A stretch of DNA of 64,000 nucleotides from Geothermobacter ehrlichii. GTDB lineage: Bacteria; Desulfobacterota; Desulfuromonadia; Desulfuromonadales; Geothermobacteraceae. The notes under the pieces were generated by a model. That model did not search any database. It was not told the DNA's origin and saw nothing but the letters and a program-made list of their open reading frames with translations. The DNA is taken from NCBI RefSeq assembly GCF_008124615.1, contig NZ_VNIB01000002.1, positions 62,001-126,000 of the forward strand, read 5' to 3'. Each line of letters begins with the position of its first letter. Within the stretch, counting starts at the first letter, position 1. Below are positions 38,746 through 44,048 of this stretch, piece by piece. The translations under genes were made by a program, and so were the position numbers.

Positions 38746-39377
38746 TGCAGGTACGCGGTCTCGTCTACGACTGTGACGGGGTGCTGTTCGAAAGCCGCCG
38801 GGCCAACCTGGCCTATTACAACGCCATCCTGCAGGCATTCGGCCATGAGCCGGTGACCGAAGACCAGCAGGAGCTGGCCCGGCTCTGCCACACCGCCGAC
38901 AGCGCCACGGTTCTGCGGCGGCTGCTCGGTCCCGGGTTGGCCGAGCGGGCGCTGGAGATGGCCTCCCGGCTCGACTATCGCCAGTTCATCGGTTTCATGT
39001 CCCCCGAGCCGGGCATGGTCGATACACTGCGTACCCTGGCCCGGCGCCTTCCCTTGGCCGTGGCCACCAACCGGGGAGGCAGCATGCCGGCTATCCTGTG
39101 CCACTTCGAGCTCGAATCCTGTTTTTCGGCGGTGGTGACCAGTCGTGACGTGCAGCGACCCAAGCCGGCTCCCGACATGCTTCTGCTGGCGGCCGAACGG
39201 CTGGACGTGGCACCGCACAGTCTGCTCTTCGTCGGCGATTCCCATCTCGACCGCCAAGCTGCCGAAGCCGCCGGCATGCCTTTTGTCGCCTACGGCGGCG
39301 AGGTGACGGGAGACTGGACGGTCAATTCCCATCGCGAGCTGAGAGAGCTGGTGGATCGCGTCAGCGCAGATGCTTGA
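38745..39377 (+). CDS. HAD-superfamily phosphatase (phosphoglycolate phosphatase-like)
   Basis: 210 residues. HAD motif I is YDCDGVLFESR (nucleophile and acid Asp), motif II TNRGGS, motif III Lys in QRPKPAPDM, and motif IV VGDSHLDRQAA. The helical cap makes it a subclass IA enzyme similar to Gph or PpaX. The substrate is not determinable. It is translationally coupled to lgt, and its 3' end overlaps the convergent RsbW-like gene by 17 bases. Confidence 0.88.
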   Translation: MQVRGLVYDCDGVLFESRRANLAYYNAILQAFGHEPVTEDQQELARLCHTADSATVLRRLLGPGLAERALEMASRLDYRQFIGFMSPEPGMVDTLRTLARRLPLAVATNRGGSMPAILCHFELESCFSAVVTSRDVQRPKPAPDMLLLAAERLDVAPHSLLFVGDSHLDRQAAEAAGMPFVAYGGEVTGDWTVNSHRELRELVDRVSADA

Positions 39378-39780
39378 TCATTTCCAGGACATATCCGTCC
39401 TCGTGTTGCTGATAGTCGACCTCGTCCATGAGAGAACGGATGATATAGACACCCCGGCCGTGTTCGTCCAGCCGGCGGAATTCGTGATTGCCGAGGGCCG
39501 TCAGATCGAATCCTGATCCCTGATCGTAGACCCTGATGATCAGGCGGTCGTTTTTGACCCCTATGCAGACCCGGATCTCCTTCTCCGGATCGTCCTCGTT
39601 GGCATGCCGGATGGCGTTGGTGATCGCCTCGGTCAGGACCAGGTTGATGTGGTAGGCGAGCTCCTCCCTGTCCCCCCGGTAACTTCTGAGGGTATGGGCG
39701 ATATCTTCGCCGATCCTGCCGATCAGACCGAGATAGCGGGTCTGGTTGGGGACTCTGATATCGATCTTCAGCCGCTCCAT
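39361..39780 (-). CDS. RsbW/SpoIIAB-like ATP-binding anti-sigma (kinase) protein
   Basis: 139 residues, a lone GHKL ATPase domain. The N-box is LVLTEAITNAIRHAN (about 47-61), the G1 box DQGSGFD and the G2 box GRGVYIIRSLMDEV. Such proteins phosphorylate a STAS antagonist and sequester a partner until the antagonist is dephosphorylated. The STAS gene is directly upstream, and the phosphatase is upstream of that. No sigma factor gene is adjacent, so the sequestered partner may be something else. It is the last gene of the four-gene operon. Confidence 0.92.
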   Translation of the reverse strand: MERLKIDIRVPNQTRYLGLIGRIGEDIAHTLRSYRGDREELAYHINLVLTEAITNAIRHANEDDPEKEIRVCIGVKNDRLIIRVYDQGSGFDLTALGNHEFRRLDEHGRGVYIIRSLMDEVDYQQHEDGYVLEMIKHLR

Positions 39781-39794
39781 GATTTCCAGGACGA

Positions 39795-39820
39795 ACCGGG
39801 AGGCCGATCGACCTCCCGGT
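39795..39820 (-). repeat. Intercistronic hairpin between STAS and RsbW-like genes
   Basis: Perfect 9-bp arms ACCGGGAGG and CCTCCCGGT around CCGATCGA, located 12 bases after the STAS stop and with no T-tract. It could slow decay of the upstream message, favouring antagonist over kinase, or mask the kinase ribosome site. Confidence 0.5.
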
Positions 39821-39832
39821 GATCATCCAGAT

Positions 39833-40171
39833 TTATTCGAAGCTGGCCAGCGCTTCGTCGGCGTTGGGGTAGATTTCGAAGACGCGGTGCAGGCGTGTCA
39901 GTTCGAACATCGATTTGACCTGCGGCTGCAGGCCGCAGAGCTTCAGGCTGCCGTTGCGGGCGCTGGCGTTCTTGAAGCCTGAGACGAGGGCGCCCAGTCC
40001 CGACGAATCGACGAACCGGACCTCTTCGAGGTTGACGACAAGGTTGTTCTTGCCCTCTTCGAACAGGTTGAGCATCTGGGTTTTCAGCTCGCCGCTGTTG
40101 TGGGCGTCGAGGCGCTCCTCCTTGACGTTGATGAGAACCGCGGCTTCTCTTTCATCGATCTGGACAATCAT
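39833..40171 (-). CDS. STAS-domain anti-sigma factor antagonist (RsbV/SpoIIAA-like)
   Basis: 112 residues, a single STAS domain. VRFVDSSGLGALV contains the conserved phosphorylatable serine (Ser56 or Ser57). The length and the Asp-Ser-Ser-Gly motif are standard for RsbV. In the expected cycle the downstream kinase phosphorylates it, and the upstream PP2C domain removes the phosphate. A good AAAGGAG site precedes its ATG. Confidence 0.94.
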   Translation of the reverse strand: MIVQIDEREAAVLINVKEERLDAHNSGELKTQMLNLFEEGKNNLVVNLEEVRFVDSSGLGALVSGFKNASARNGSLKLCGLQPQVKSMFELTRLHRVFEIYPNADEALASFE

Positions 40172-40255
40172 CGTATAGTCTCCTTTGCTGACGGGTCTGG
40201 TATGAATCGGACAGCCGGTGAGGCTGTTTCAGGATACCATTTCTGTCTTTTCTTT

Positions 40256-43200
40256 TCAGCTTTCCGTTCCTGCCGCGCTGTCGTCGACTGGCTCGATTTT
40301 CATGACCACCAGGGAAATGTCGTCCCGGAAGCTGTGACTGCCGGTGAATAGCCTGACCTGCTGCAGCAGGTATTCGATGATCTCCTGCGGCGATCTGTCG
40401 GCGCAGGAGGTGAAGAGTTCGGCCAGGCGCTGGTCACCGAAAAAGTCGCCGCGACTGTTCTCCGCCTCGATAATGCCGTCGGTGAACAGGAGCAGCAGGT
40501 CCCCCGGCTCCAGCCTGGCGGTGCGGGTTTCGAAACTGACCGATTTCTTGACGCCGAGAATCAGGCCGTCGGCATCGAGCCGTTCGATTTCGCCGGTCGA
40601 CGGTCGGAAGAGGATGGGCGGGTTGTGTCCGGCGCTGGAATAGAGCAGCCTGTTCTGATGCGGCAGGTAGCGCATGTAGATCAGGGTGATGAAGAGTTCG
40701 GCCTTGGTCAGGTCGTCGTAGAAGAATTCGTTGAGGGACTGCAGAACACTCTCGATCGATTCGATCCTGCCGGCGTGGGCCCGGATGAAGGTTCGGGTTT
40801 CGGCCATGATCAGGGCGGAGCCGACATTGTGGCCGGAGACGTCGGCGATGACCAGGTCGAGGGTCTCGTCATCCCGCTGCAGGTAGTCGTAGTAGTCGCC
40901 GCCGACTTCTTTTGCCGGCACGCAAATCCCGGCGAGACTGACTCCGGGTATCTGGGGAGTGGTCTGGGGCAGCAGGCTGAGCTGGATGGTCTTGGCGATC
41001 TCCATCTCCTTCTGCTGCTCGCGCGCCGCTATCAGGTCGCGGGTCTGCTGGTTGTTGCGCCAGGCGACGCCGACCTGACCGGCCAGGCTGGTGAAGAGCT
41101 CGATGAATTCGTCGGTGAAAATCCCCTTGGCCGTGCGCGAGAAGGCGGAGAGTACGCCGATCGGTTCTCCTTCCATGGTGATGGGCGCGTGGGCGAAGGA
41201 GAGGATACCTTCACGGCGGGCGATCTGCACCGTCTGTGGCCGGTTGACCAGTTCGTCGGTGTCGTTGACCACTACCGGCGTGTTGGTGAGAAAAGCCTCG
41301 CCGATGCTTGTTTCCATGGTCAGCTCCCGCGCCGACTGGCCGAGATGTTCCGAACTCATCCCCTTCTGGCTGCAGACCTTGAGCGTCATGGTTTCGTCGT
41401 CGAGCAGCCGGATGACCACCAGGTCGAACTTGAACTGCTGCACCAGCAGCTCGAGAATGTTGTCAAAGATCGTCTGCAGCGGCGCGCCGCTTGCGACCAC
41501 CCTTGCCGCCTCGTAAAGGACCGAAAGCTGCTCGCGGCTTGAAGTGCGGCTGAGGGTGACCGAGCCGAAAATGTCGAAGACGTCCTCCATCTTGCTGCCG
41601 CGCGTTGCCAGGTAGTTTTCGACGATGATGTGGGCAGCCGCGGCACCGACTGAGCCCGCCAGGGTGCGTTCGGTGAACCGCTTCAGATTGGGCAGCTCGT
41701 ATTCGGAAAGGCGGCCGCGCTGGTCGATTTCGCGGTCGCCGATATATTCGGCAATAGCCGTATGGGCCTGTTTTTCGCCAATGAACTTGGTCATCAGATC
41801 GACGAACTCCATGATCGTCGGCGCTTTGCTGATGCGCTGCCGTTCGATGGGAAGCGTGCGCCCGCCGAAGACGCCGATGAATTTGTCCGCCTGTTCCTCT
41901 TCGTTTTTCGAAGGGCTGGTCAAAAGGGAGAGGGTGAGGAAAGCGCCGATGTTGAAGAAGAGGGCCCAGAAGAGGGAATGGGACCACATGTCGAAGCCGC
42001 TCAGGCCGAAGAGCTCGAGGGGGCGCAGGATTGACACACCGAACGGCCCTTCGTCGAGTATGCTGCTGTCCAGCCAGCCCGAACGCGCGAATGAGGGGAT
42101 GATCAGGGTGTAGAACCAGACGATGAACCCGAGAATCAGTCCCGTGGCCGCTCCCTTGCGGTTGGCCCGTCGCCAGTAGAGACCGCCGACCAGGCTGGGG
42201 GCGAACTGGGTTGCGGCGATGAAGGAGATGAGGCCGATGTTGACCAGTGCGTATGAGTCGCCGATGACCCGGTAGAAGAGATAACCGAGAAAGACCACCA
42301 ACAGAATGGCCAGGCGTTTGAGGTTGAGCAGCACCACCCAGTAATTGTCGACGACGATGCGGAACTTGAGAATCAGGGGGATGATCAGCTGATTCAGGAT
42401 CATGGTCGCCAAGGCGACCGACGAGATCATGACCATGCCGGCCGCGGCCGACAGGCCGCCGACAAAGGCGAGCAGTCCCAGCCAGTAATGCCCGGTCTCG
42501 ATGGGCAGGTGCAGGACGAAGTAGTCGGCGTTGCCGGTATCGCCGCCGTTGAGGAGCAGGCCGCCAAGGGCGATGGGAATGACGAAAATGTTGATGGCGA
42601 AGATATAGGCCGGAAAGCGCCACATGGCGTGGCGGATGTGGTTTTCATCCGAGTTTTCGATGACCATGATATGGAACTGGCGTGGCAGGAACATGAAGGC
42701 CATCATCGAAATGAAGGTCAGACTGAACCAGGAGATGTAAGGGATCTGTTCGGTGTCGATGACCACCAGGTTGACGCGCTCGGGAAATTCCCTGAGAAAA
42801 CGGTCGAAAATATCGGTAAAACCGTCGAAAAGTCCGTAGGTAACGAAAACGCCGACCGCCATGAAGGCCACAAGCTTGATGATCGATTCCAGGGCGATGG
42901 CGGCGACCATGCCCTCATGCTGTTCGGACGCGTCGAGATGGCGTGCCCCGAAGAGCACGCCGAAAAGACCGAGCAGCAGGGCGGTGATGAAGGCGGTGTC
43001 GACGTAGCCGGGAAGCCGCGGCAGGAAATGCCCCACCCCTTCACTGACCACGGCCGGCGGCAGGGTCAGGATGTCGAATGTATGGGAGACCGCCTTGAGC
43101 TGCAGGGCGATGTAGGGCATGATGCCCACCACCGAAAAGATGGTGACCAGGGCGCCGAGGTAGGCCGATTTTCCGTAGCGGCTGGAAATGAAGTCGGCGA

Positions 43201-43504
43201 TGGTAGTGATGTTCTGTTCCTTGCTGACGCGGACGATGCGGCGCAGCAGAAACCACCAGGTGAAGGCGATGAGGGTCGGCCCCAGATAGATGGTCAGAAA
43301 ATCGAGGCCGATGGTCGCCGCCCGGCCGACGCTGCCGTAGAAGGTCCAGGAGGTGCAGTAGACGCCGAGCGACAGGGAGTAGATGGCCGGGTTGGAAATG
43401 ATGCTCCGACCCGCTTCCCGTCTCTTGTCGGCATAATAGGCGACAAGGAAGAGCAGCCCGAGATAGAGCAGGGAGATGGTAGCGACAAGTTTGACTGAAA
43501 TCAT
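40256..43504 (-). CDS. Symporter-like sensor fused to STAC, GAF and RsbU-type PP2C phosphatase
   Basis: 1082 residues. About 1-530 is a sodium/solute symporter (SSS, SLC5-like) domain with some 13 helices (SNPAIYSLSLGVYCTSWTFYG, DFISSRYGKSAYLG). About 570-650 resembles the STAC linker seen in CbrA-like kinases (LKRFTERTLAGSVGAAAAHII). About 680-825 is GAF. About 838-1072 is a SpoIIE/RsbU PP2C domain with EIAKTIQLSLLP, KEVGGDYYDY, IADVSGHNVGSAL, FTDGIIEA and FRDDISLVV, so the metal-binding Asp residues are present. It should dephosphorylate the STAS protein encoded next. It overlaps the small upstream membrane gene by 4 bases. Confidence 0.9.
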   Translation of the reverse strand: MISVKLVATISLLYLGLLFLVAYYADKRREAGRSIISNPAIYSLSLGVYCTSWTFYGSVGRAATIGLDFLTIYLGPTLIAFTWWFLLRRIVRVSKEQNITTIADFISSRYGKSAYLGALVTIFSVVGIMPYIALQLKAVSHTFDILTLPPAVVSEGVGHFLPRLPGYVDTAFITALLLGLFGVLFGARHLDASEQHEGMVAAIALESIIKLVAFMAVGVFVTYGLFDGFTDIFDRFLREFPERVNLVVIDTEQIPYISWFSLTFISMMAFMFLPRQFHIMVIENSDENHIRHAMWRFPAYIFAINIFVIPIALGGLLLNGGDTGNADYFVLHLPIETGHYWLGLLAFVGGLSAAAGMVMISSVALATMILNQLIIPLILKFRIVVDNYWVVLLNLKRLAILLVVFLGYLFYRVIGDSYALVNIGLISFIAATQFAPSLVGGLYWRRANRKGAATGLILGFIVWFYTLIIPSFARSGWLDSSILDEGPFGVSILRPLELFGLSGFDMWSHSLFWALFFNIGAFLTLSLLTSPSKNEEEQADKFIGVFGGRTLPIERQRISKAPTIMEFVDLMTKFIGEKQAHTAIAEYIGDREIDQRGRLSEYELPNLKRFTERTLAGSVGAAAAHIIVENYLATRGSKMEDVFDIFGSVTLSRTSSREQLSVLYEAARVVASGAPLQTIFDNILELLVQQFKFDLVVIRLLDDETMTLKVCSQKGMSSEHLGQSARELTMETSIGEAFLTNTPVVVNDTDELVNRPQTVQIARREGILSFAHAPITMEGEPIGVLSAFSRTAKGIFTDEFIELFTSLAGQVGVAWRNNQQTRDLIAAREQQKEMEIAKTIQLSLLPQTTPQIPGVSLAGICVPAKEVGGDYYDYLQRDDETLDLVIADVSGHNVGSALIMAETRTFIRAHAGRIESIESVLQSLNEFFYDDLTKAELFITLIYMRYLPHQNRLLYSSAGHNPPILFRPSTGEIERLDADGLILGVKKSVSFETRTARLEPGDLLLLFTDGIIEAENSRGDFFGDQRLAELFTSCADRSPQEIIEYLLQQVRLFTGSHSFRDDISLVVMKIEPVDDSAAGTES

Positions 43505-43746
43505 GGAAGTTTCAGGTCGTCTCCGTTGCCATGGCTGTCGTCATGGTCGAGCTGAAGGGAGAACAGGAAGATGACCAGGATTGACAGTGGCCATCCGAGC
43601 ATCAGGTAGAGGACCAGAACGGGAATGCCGAACAGGGTATCAGGCTTGTTGAAGATATGAATGAAGGGATAGTTGAGCATGATGATGCCCAGCAGAAAGC
43701 AGAGAATCCAGGCTTCGCGCAGCCGGTGTGGTTCGCTCTTCTTCAT
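43501..43746 (-). CDS. Small two-helix membrane protein upstream of the symporter-phosphatase
   Basis: 81 residues from the ATG at 43746, which follows GGAAAAGG; the longer frame to 43881 has no ribosome site. Two hydrophobic stretches (about 12-30 and 39-63: WILCFLLGIIMLNYPFI, FGIPVLVLYLMLGWPLSILVIFLF) are joined by a short NKPD turn. A basic head and a His/Asp-rich tail (DHDDSHGNGDD) flank them. The layout resembles small subunits found beside SSS transporters, but I cannot name a family. The ATGA overlap with the next gene implies it partners the symporter-like sensor. Confidence 0.75.
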   Translation of the reverse strand: MKKSEPHRLREAWILCFLLGIIMLNYPFIHIFNKPDTLFGIPVLVLYLMLGWPLSILVIFLFSLQLDHDDSHGNGDDLKLP

Positions 43747-43874: not shown

Positions 43875-43903
43875 TTGTCAACTTAACCCGTTGAATTTAC
43901 AAT
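43875..43903 (+). promoter_or_regulatory. Promoter candidate for the TPR-lipoprotein operon
   Basis: TTGTCA at 43875-43880, 17-base spacer, TACAAT at 43898-43903, in an AT-rich divergent intergenic region. A leader of about 140 bases separates it from the 44049 start. Confidence 0.6.
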
Positions 43904-44048
43904 TACATTAACACAGTTGCCGGAGCTGTAAAGAGATCGGTTTCCGGTTGTTTCCCGCAACGGGGCGAAAGAGAACTCCCGGCTCCCCGTTTTTTTCTGG
44001 CCTGAATCCCGCCATCCTCCGCCGGGGGACGGCGCTGTCTGAGGATCG

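Follow-up and report, generated by a model that had tools for sequence, protein, structure and literature searches.

The four-gene unit and its proteins

Examination of a 64,000-nucleotide (nt) stretch of the Geothermobacter ehrlichii genome (NZ_VNIB01000002.1, positions 62,001 to 126,000; hereafter the window, whose own numbering is used throughout) led to a unit of four minus-strand genes within 39361-43746. In order they encode a small protein, a receptor of 1082 amino acids (aa) that joins a transporter-like SSS (SLC5) domain to a serine phosphatase, a STAS protein and an RsbW-like protein. The small gene and the receptor gene overlap by 4 nt (ATGA), and gaps of 84 nt and 52 nt follow. An earlier note on this DNA, made from its letters alone, had described an SSS-GAF-SpoIIE fusion in one operon with a STAS protein and an RsbW-like ATPase, all overlapping or closely spaced; this account proved right in coordinates, spacing and composition, with Pfam or PDB matches for the proteins concerned. 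The features are the following.

43501-43746, minus strand: small gene, predicted two-helix membrane protein of 81 aa, CbrX-like accessory (gene order, family profile)
40256-43504, minus strand: receptor, 1082-aa SSS(SLC5)-STAC-GAF-SpoIIE transporter-like phosphatase (Pfam, PDB alignment, predicted structure, class homologues)
41915-43504, minus strand: SSS/SLC5 transporter-like domain, residues ~1-530 (phmmer against CbrA 10ed_A; predicted fold)
42875-42877, minus strand: Lys210 codon, aligned to CbrA Lys196 of the Na2 site (alignment)
41600-41836, minus strand: STAC domain, residues ~557-635, four short helices (CbrA alignment, model)
41063-41482, minus strand: GAF domain, residues 675-814 (Pfam; solved GAF 2qyb of Geobacter sulfurreducens)
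40976-41113, minus strand: long signalling helix, residues 798-843, point of divergence between kinases and phosphatases (model, alignment)
40295-40870, minus strand: SpoIIE/RsbU-type PP2C phosphatase, residues 879-1070 (Pfam, conserved aspartates)
39833-40171, minus strand: STAS anti-sigma-factor-antagonist-like protein with DSSG (S56, S57) (Pfam, NCBIfam, conservation)
39361-39780, minus strand: RsbW/SpoIIAB-like GHKL serine kinase (Pfam, NCBIfam, conservation)

Pfam searches with the 1082-aa protein returned SpoIIE (residues 879-1070, E-value = 8.2e-53), GAF_2 (residues 675-814, E-value = 9.6e-18) and a weak SSF match (E-value = 3.4e-8), in agreement with the domains that the earlier note had read; the HisKA and HATPase_c domains of a histidine kinase output are absent from these matches, SpoIIE being found instead. 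The note had allowed for a stop codon between the domains. The gene contains none, and full-length homologues occur across the class (43-80% identity among the matches listed), so the fusion is not an artefact. Although the SSF match is weak, the identity of the transporter domain is secured by the alignment of residues 7-635 with the solved SLC5-STAC chain of CbrA (10ed_A, phmmer against PDB chains, E-value = 4e-77), which reaches CbrA residue 595 and so includes STAC. The STAC-like linker proposed in the earlier note is supported by this alignment and by four short predicted helices in the structure model (564-575, 577-588, 604-619 and 621-633), but no Pfam or NCBIfam profile matched the 1082-aa protein at STAC. 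The model was built from a 23-row alignment and has a mean predicted local distance difference test score (pLDDT) of 77 and a predicted template modelling score (pTM) of 0.52, for which reason the relative placement of its domains was left unused. Its residues 1-552 match SSS transporters with Z-scores up to 34.6; the VIA-align rows listed hardly cover the STAC region, and 10ed is absent from either structure-comparison list.

In the solved structure of CbrA, K196 occupies the Na2 site (PMC13022988, preprint; publications are cited here by PMC number). The corresponding residue, Lys210, is a lysine in all 79 aligned rows of the phosphatase type. The sodium-site residues had been singled out in the earlier note for examination, and since the presumed Na2 position is filled by a conserved lysine, as in the proton-coupled CbrA, sodium coupling is unlikely and sodium symport is disfavoured as the coupling mode. 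Four kinase-type receptors (L139, L140, L143 and L153) have a glutamate in place of this lysine. The eight positions of the CbrA pocket were mapped manually on the 10ed_A alignment to Y49, T51, W53, T54, F69, Y73, S266 and F428, each of which is the commonest residue in 59-68 of 68 rows, mostly of the operon type with STAS and RsbW alongside, one copy of L126 without them being included. Conservation is lower in 11 receptors that lack STAS-RsbW: six retain Y49, six Y73, seven S266 and eight F428. A pocket and Lys210 that are near-invariant in the operon type and more variable outside it suggest a selected, ligand-specific site, although many kinases carry the same nine residues (the pocket plus the lysine), a signature that therefore leaves the ligand unnamed.

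The GAF domain aligns with PDB entry 2qyb (E-value = 3.1e-30; Z-score of 21.4 for model residues 671-818) and is conserved in the 23-row alignment. One long helix (residues 798-843) follows in the model, and residues 822-1077 match SiaA (6k4e, Z-score of 26.0) and the Rv1364c phosphatase (Z-score of 25.7). The PP2C residues D870, D873, D888, D1009, D1061 and D1062 are kept in 79/79 aligned rows. Thus Pfam, conservation and structural comparison all place a PP2C fold with its metal-binding aspartates at the C-terminus of the receptor.

The two switch proteins are also well kept. The STAS protein matches Pfam STAS (E-value = 6.7e-21) and scores 82.6 bits with TIGR00377, over its cut-off of 53.45, and S56 and S57 of its DSSG motif are conserved, with no more than one exception among 67 rows; which of these serines is phosphorylated we take from relatives. 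The RsbW-like protein matches HATPase_c_2 (E-value = 9.2e-26) and has the N, G1 and G2 boxes, and 66 rows show no more than a single exception at E51, N55, D86, G88, G90 and G108-R109-G110. It falls short of the equivalog level for RsbW, scoring 68 and 63.9 bits against cut-offs of 145 and 155.05.

The small first gene, left uninterpreted in the earlier note, probably encodes an accessory protein of the CbrX type. The 81-aa product has nothing significant in Pfam, its two helices were read from the sequence by eye, and neither its sequence nor a 12-row profile gave a PDB match indicating CbrX homology. The gene lies upstream of the receptor gene in all 63 distinct loci that also have STAS and RsbW, overlapping it by 4 nt in 29 of them. 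A family profile of 78 small proteins also recognised the open reading frame (ORF) just upstream of SSS-STAC kinases in three of five plasmid loci (Cupriavidus, E-value = 3.5e-15; Paracoccus, 2e-8 and 3.4e-8), with no upstream match in the Sinorhizobium or Azospirillum plasmid loci. With these three included, the profile found an upstream ORF in 14 of the 21 kinase-labelled loci (E-value < 1e-3), two of the seven misses (L137 and L144) having little or no upstream sequence. In Pseudomonas, translation of CbrX is coupled to that of cbrA (PMC6591292), and a structure determined by cryo-electron microscopy shows CbrX packed against the SLC5 domain (PMC13022988, preprint).

Distribution and a probable exchange of output

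Within the order Desulfuromonadales, 118 of 136 genomes have a receptor match (E-value of 1e-100 or better), and within the class Desulfuromonadia 243 of 277 do (1e-70 or better); these counts include partial matches at contig ends, and a low-scoring match could be of the kinase type. Eighty-one full-length homologues are distinct in sequence and 75 have enough flanking DNA; in 63 of these STAS and RsbW lie downstream of the receptor gene, and each of the 63 has the small gene upstream. A contig scan, which returned close relatives only, gave 46 loci, 43 of them matching the SSS half; the other three are L078, L079 and L080, the last a match of 99 residues. L078 and L079, from Ignavibacteria, match the GAF-SpoIIE part only. 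The titles of the 43 loci name Desulfuromonadales, Deltaproteobacteria or a genus, with the exception of the Chloroflexi-titled L049. This record carries a unit of 63% identity and is perhaps a misassigned bin.

Among the relatives listed outside the class, the same receptor half has a different ending. In a draw of 395 genomes from the phylum, with the best two candidates per genome scored, 78 had a match (E-value of 1e-90 or better), 17 of these in the class, and none of the matches listed outside the class extends past query residue 847, so that they lose the phosphatase; most lie in ORFs of 900-1490 aa. HisKA was found by Pfam in 20/20 kinase-labelled relatives scanned and HATPase_c in 19, L153 being cut by the contig end; the 21 kinase labels had been set before these scans, which confirmed 20 and left L150, a truncated ORF. 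Plasmid records matching the SSS-STAC part number 64, and all five that were scanned with Pfam are kinases. Kinase-type SSS-STAC receptors also occur in the order of the window genome (L146 and L147, both scanned, and the truncated L150), and in L148, of the same order, a SpoIIE domain begins before the contig ends.

In a tree of the SSS-STAC part (53 rows), the 21 kinase rows lie on one side of a single branch with a Shimodaira-Hasegawa-like approximate likelihood ratio support (SH-aLRT) of 98; the tree was made by a quick method, is unrooted, leaves 17 of its 50 inner branches open and has long end branches for L148, L149, L152, L133 and L134. Phosphatases and kinases diverge in the helix that follows GAF, the former continuing into an EMEIAKxIQxSLLP-like motif and the latter into the H-box of HisKA. 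This divergence, taken together with the single kinase branch, points to one exchange of output, and the plain reading of the sequences would be that a kinase gave way to a phosphatase once, in the class ancestor; as the tree is unrooted, this direction is taken from breadth of occurrence.

The commonest other neighbours in 43 named loci are genes for a TPR lipoprotein (35), an oligopeptide-binding protein (31), Lgt (24) and a HAD phosphatase (19), the names having been read by eye in loci of varied length and clusters found in at least four loci being considered. They are divergent, apart from a same-strand gene upstream (8 loci) and a response-regulator-like gene downstream (4 loci). As the commonest of them run the opposite way, the conserved unit consists of the four genes described here. 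No sigma factor or cyclase that could serve as a local target was recognised by eye, without a domain search, in neighbour clusters of at least 4 of the 43 loci.

For a shared promoter, alignment of seven upstream stretches is poor (mean column identity of 42%), and a promoter scan gave two sites, each on the opposite strand, a number close to that in shuffled sequences. Four of the seven aligned regions (window 43880-43970, L035, L036 and L056) have in common the stretch CTTTACAG, near the divergent TPR gene. The same scan reported nine terminator-like sites (4.2 in shuffles), two of them on the minus strand and inside the main ORF. Elsewhere in the window genome (G000, contig C16, 18433-20172), three HATPase_c_2 domains adjoin a SpoIIE domain, a possible second partner-switch set.

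A proposed solute-controlled switch and its alternatives

We consider it probable that this is a receptor of the CbrA type, SLC5 followed by STAC, in which a SpoIIE/RsbU-type PP2C has taken the place of the histidine kinase and which acts in a solute-controlled partner switch. A small solute would occupy or cross the SLC5 domain, in a manner that is probably proton-coupled or proton-gated and not sodium-dependent. STAC, beneath the transporter, and the GAF domain, as a second and cytoplasmic input, would relay the change to the long helix, which in turn may determine how the phosphatase domains pair and how active they are. CbrA offers a precedent for the membrane side, with STAC contacting the transporter domain and CbrX bound (PMC13022988, preprint), and control of PP2C phosphatases through a linker has been described (PMC12143880). 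We infer that the phosphatase would act on the neighbouring STAS protein, dephosphorylating its DSSG serine, and that the unphosphorylated STAS protein could then capture the RsbW-like kinase, freeing another partner of the kinase encoded elsewhere. The CbrX-like protein would pack against the SLC5 domain, its gene presumably coupling translation. Of this scheme, the sequences themselves show the domains, the intact catalytic motifs, the order and conservation of the genes and the division into kinase and phosphatase versions, while the STAS protein as substrate, partner switching, the linker step and the part played by the small protein are drawn from the families concerned.

Several observations weigh against this reading. 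CbrA can signal without its membrane part if the remainder of the protein is overproduced (PMC6591292), and CbrX is dispensable for growth on histidine (PMC13022988, preprint). Lys210 is not universal, since the 53-row tree set has a lysine in 47 rows, a glutamate in 4 (all among the 21 kinase rows), a valine in the operon-type L149 and a gap in L148. Twelve of the 75 receptors have no STAS or RsbW beside them (L110, L112, L113, L118, L120, L122, L124, L125, two copies in L126, L041 and L075, the last being the same locus as L127). Among the twelve, one of the L126 copies is accompanied by the small gene, several have altered pocket residues, and some lie near TRAP transporters (L041, L075 and L125) or an oxidoreductase (L126), as read by eye. 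Such receptors may report other solutes to the same switch.

A further point comes from one family of the order, f4, in which the receptor is absent from 14/14 genomes; the other four genomes of the order without a match at 1e-100 are 71-91% complete. In 8/8 f4 genomes examined (L166-L173), STAS and RsbW stay between the same flanking genes without the receptor and the small gene, the DSSG motif being intact in all eight and the RsbW boxes being read in seven (L168 was missed by the pattern). The switch thus serves a purpose of its own, independent there of this phosphatase. The proposal of the earlier note that the receptor controls the STAS-RsbW switch is in keeping with their conservation as one unit, but has to be narrowed, the receptor being one input to a switch that can persist without it. 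Two f4 loci contain an ORF of 1.6-1.7 kb between TPR and STAS (L166, 8576-10186; L169, 8889-10634) that reads like a kinase or ATP-binding protein. It was considered as a replacement receptor and rejected, as by eye it resembles the gene lying upstream of the unit in 8 other loci; these two were read out of four long-gap f4 loci, leaving L167 and L171.

The f4 genomes also bear on the ligand, for which a monocarboxylate is a weak lead. TIGR03648 symporters, which we take to move acetate, are likewise absent from 14/14 f4 genomes (E-value of 1e-60) and present in 16 of 17 hand-picked receptor-bearing genomes, so that the joint absence ties the receptor loosely to monocarboxylate use. Since f4 is a single lineage, however, the joint absence amounts to one evolutionary event, and in one genome (G009) the receptor is present but TIGR03648 is not. 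By sensing acetate or another monocarboxylate, the receptor would report the supply of electron donor, as the hybrid kinases CrbS and RpuS serve acetate and pyruvate use (PMC9100948). The best-scoring symporter model, MctP (NF046076), agrees with this (residues 77-471, E-value = 7.3e-14), although its 51.3 bits lie far under the cut-off of 625, and the nine-residue signature is shared with many kinases. We regard a monocarboxylate ligand as a tentative assignment that stays somewhat short of probable.

Another view is that the SLC5 part is a working transporter or a mere membrane anchor, the true input being the GAF domain or some other cytoplasmic signal. Overproduced CbrA without its membrane part continues to respond to carbon availability (PMC6591292), and the conservation of the GAF region would suit such an input. 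As that system can do without the membrane part (with the rest overproduced) and without CbrX (for growth on histidine), the transporter part may only modulate, and a cytosolic signal, through GAF or otherwise, could dominate. Set against this, the pocket and Lys210 are near-invariant in 68 rows and more variable in the 11 receptors without STAS-RsbW, and STAC and the small gene have been kept, so that we judge this view unlikely.

As for the partner finally released in the favoured partner-switching scheme, RpoS is the second weak lead. The RsbW-like protein would then be an anti-sigma factor of RpoS, like CrsR of Shewanella and HsbR of Pseudomonas, where CrsR-CrsA and HsbR-HsbA control RpoS (PMC6482189). 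RpoS-like matches occur across the order, mostly in ORFs of 300-390 aa; with TIGR02394, 130 of 136 genomes match at 1e-60 or better, RpoD-like ORFs of about 600 aa also matching, but none of the 136 exceeds the curated cut-off. RpoS-like genes are present with and without the receptor (12 of the 14 f4 genomes have a match near 1e-100), and thus show no specific link to it; their distribution speaks neither for RpoS nor against it. With FliA/FlgM or a cyclase as further candidate partners, a role in RpoS control appears doubtful. A switch like SiaABCD, ending in a diguanylate cyclase, is very improbable, for although SiaA is the best NCBIfam match (E-value = 4e-14) and a close structural one (6k4e, with the Z-score of 26.0 given above), its 52.1 bits do not reach the cut-off of 700, and no cyclase was recognised among the conserved neighbours, by eye and without a domain search.

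A broader evolutionary scenario can be drawn from the preferred reading, although as a whole it seems to us rather improbable. The ancestor of the class would have swapped a kinase for a phosphatase in the signalling helix, making the supply of a solute, perhaps acetate, a direct input to the switch of a global regulator such as RpoS, and later copies without STAS-RsbW would have altered their pocket and report other solutes to the same switch. Acetate is the main electron donor of many members of the class.

Comparison with known systems

The closest known counterpart is CbrA-CbrX of Pseudomonas (SLC5-STAC-PAS-histidine kinase), with which the unit described here has in common the SLC5-STAC half, the lysine at the Na2 position and a small overlapping upstream gene for a two-helix protein. 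It differs in having GAF instead of PAS, PP2C instead of a histidine kinase, and STAS and RsbW instead of CbrB, and its pocket departs from that of CbrA at three of eight positions (T51, T54 and S266 here, S53, A56 and F248 in CbrA). CrbS and RpuS, which are SLC5-STAC hybrid kinases, have the same receptor architecture but an output of histidine kinase and response regulator. The Sinorhizobium fredii plasmid receptor L133, presumably RpuS-like, has six of the nine signature residues in common.

On the output side, the unit resembles RsbU, RsbP, RsbZ and SiaA, in each of which a PP2C with intact motifs stands behind a helical linker and works with STAS and kinase partners; those systems differ from the present one, whose unit holds no sigma factor or cyclase gene. 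We know of no SLC5-STAC receptor in the RsbU, RsbP, RsbZ or SiaA systems. A part of the receptor has been in the PDB since 2007, as 2qyb, the GAF domain of a Geobacter sulfurreducens 'putative membrane protein' that is 82% identical to the GAF of the operon-type L114; only this domain was solved, and the title of the entry gives no function. The earlier note had presented a serine phosphatase output as different from the known SSS-STAC kinases. A 2021 review based on a SMART search had already listed actinobacterial SSS-HATPase_c proteins with GAF and PP2C_SIG domains (PMC7918813). These also contain an ATPase domain, and the section concerned makes no mention of STAC. Beyond that remark, a literature search that was thin on subscription journals led to no study of the phosphatase version.

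The kind of receptor is therefore already known and its output is different, while the combination of SSS, GAF and PP2C is not unheard of. What the present unit offers is a natural exchange of output domains that is class-wide and full-length: the transporter-like receptor stays the same, and the join can be seen in the linking helix. Work on RsbU led to the proposal that sensors are exchangeable among PP2C phosphatases, histidine kinases and cyclases via a shared coiled-coil linker (PMC12143880), and a natural exchange at the helix makes that 2025 proposal of shared sensor-linker modules directly testable for PP2C phosphatases and histidine kinases. For metal-reducing bacteria such as Geobacter, the finding indicates that a solute is the probable input and that a STAS-RsbW switch is conserved. 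Since the Geobacter/Desulfuromonas group has kept this sensor-phosphatase fusion next to its probable two-protein switch, nature itself has set up an experiment on the way a receptor can be rewired to another kind of signal.

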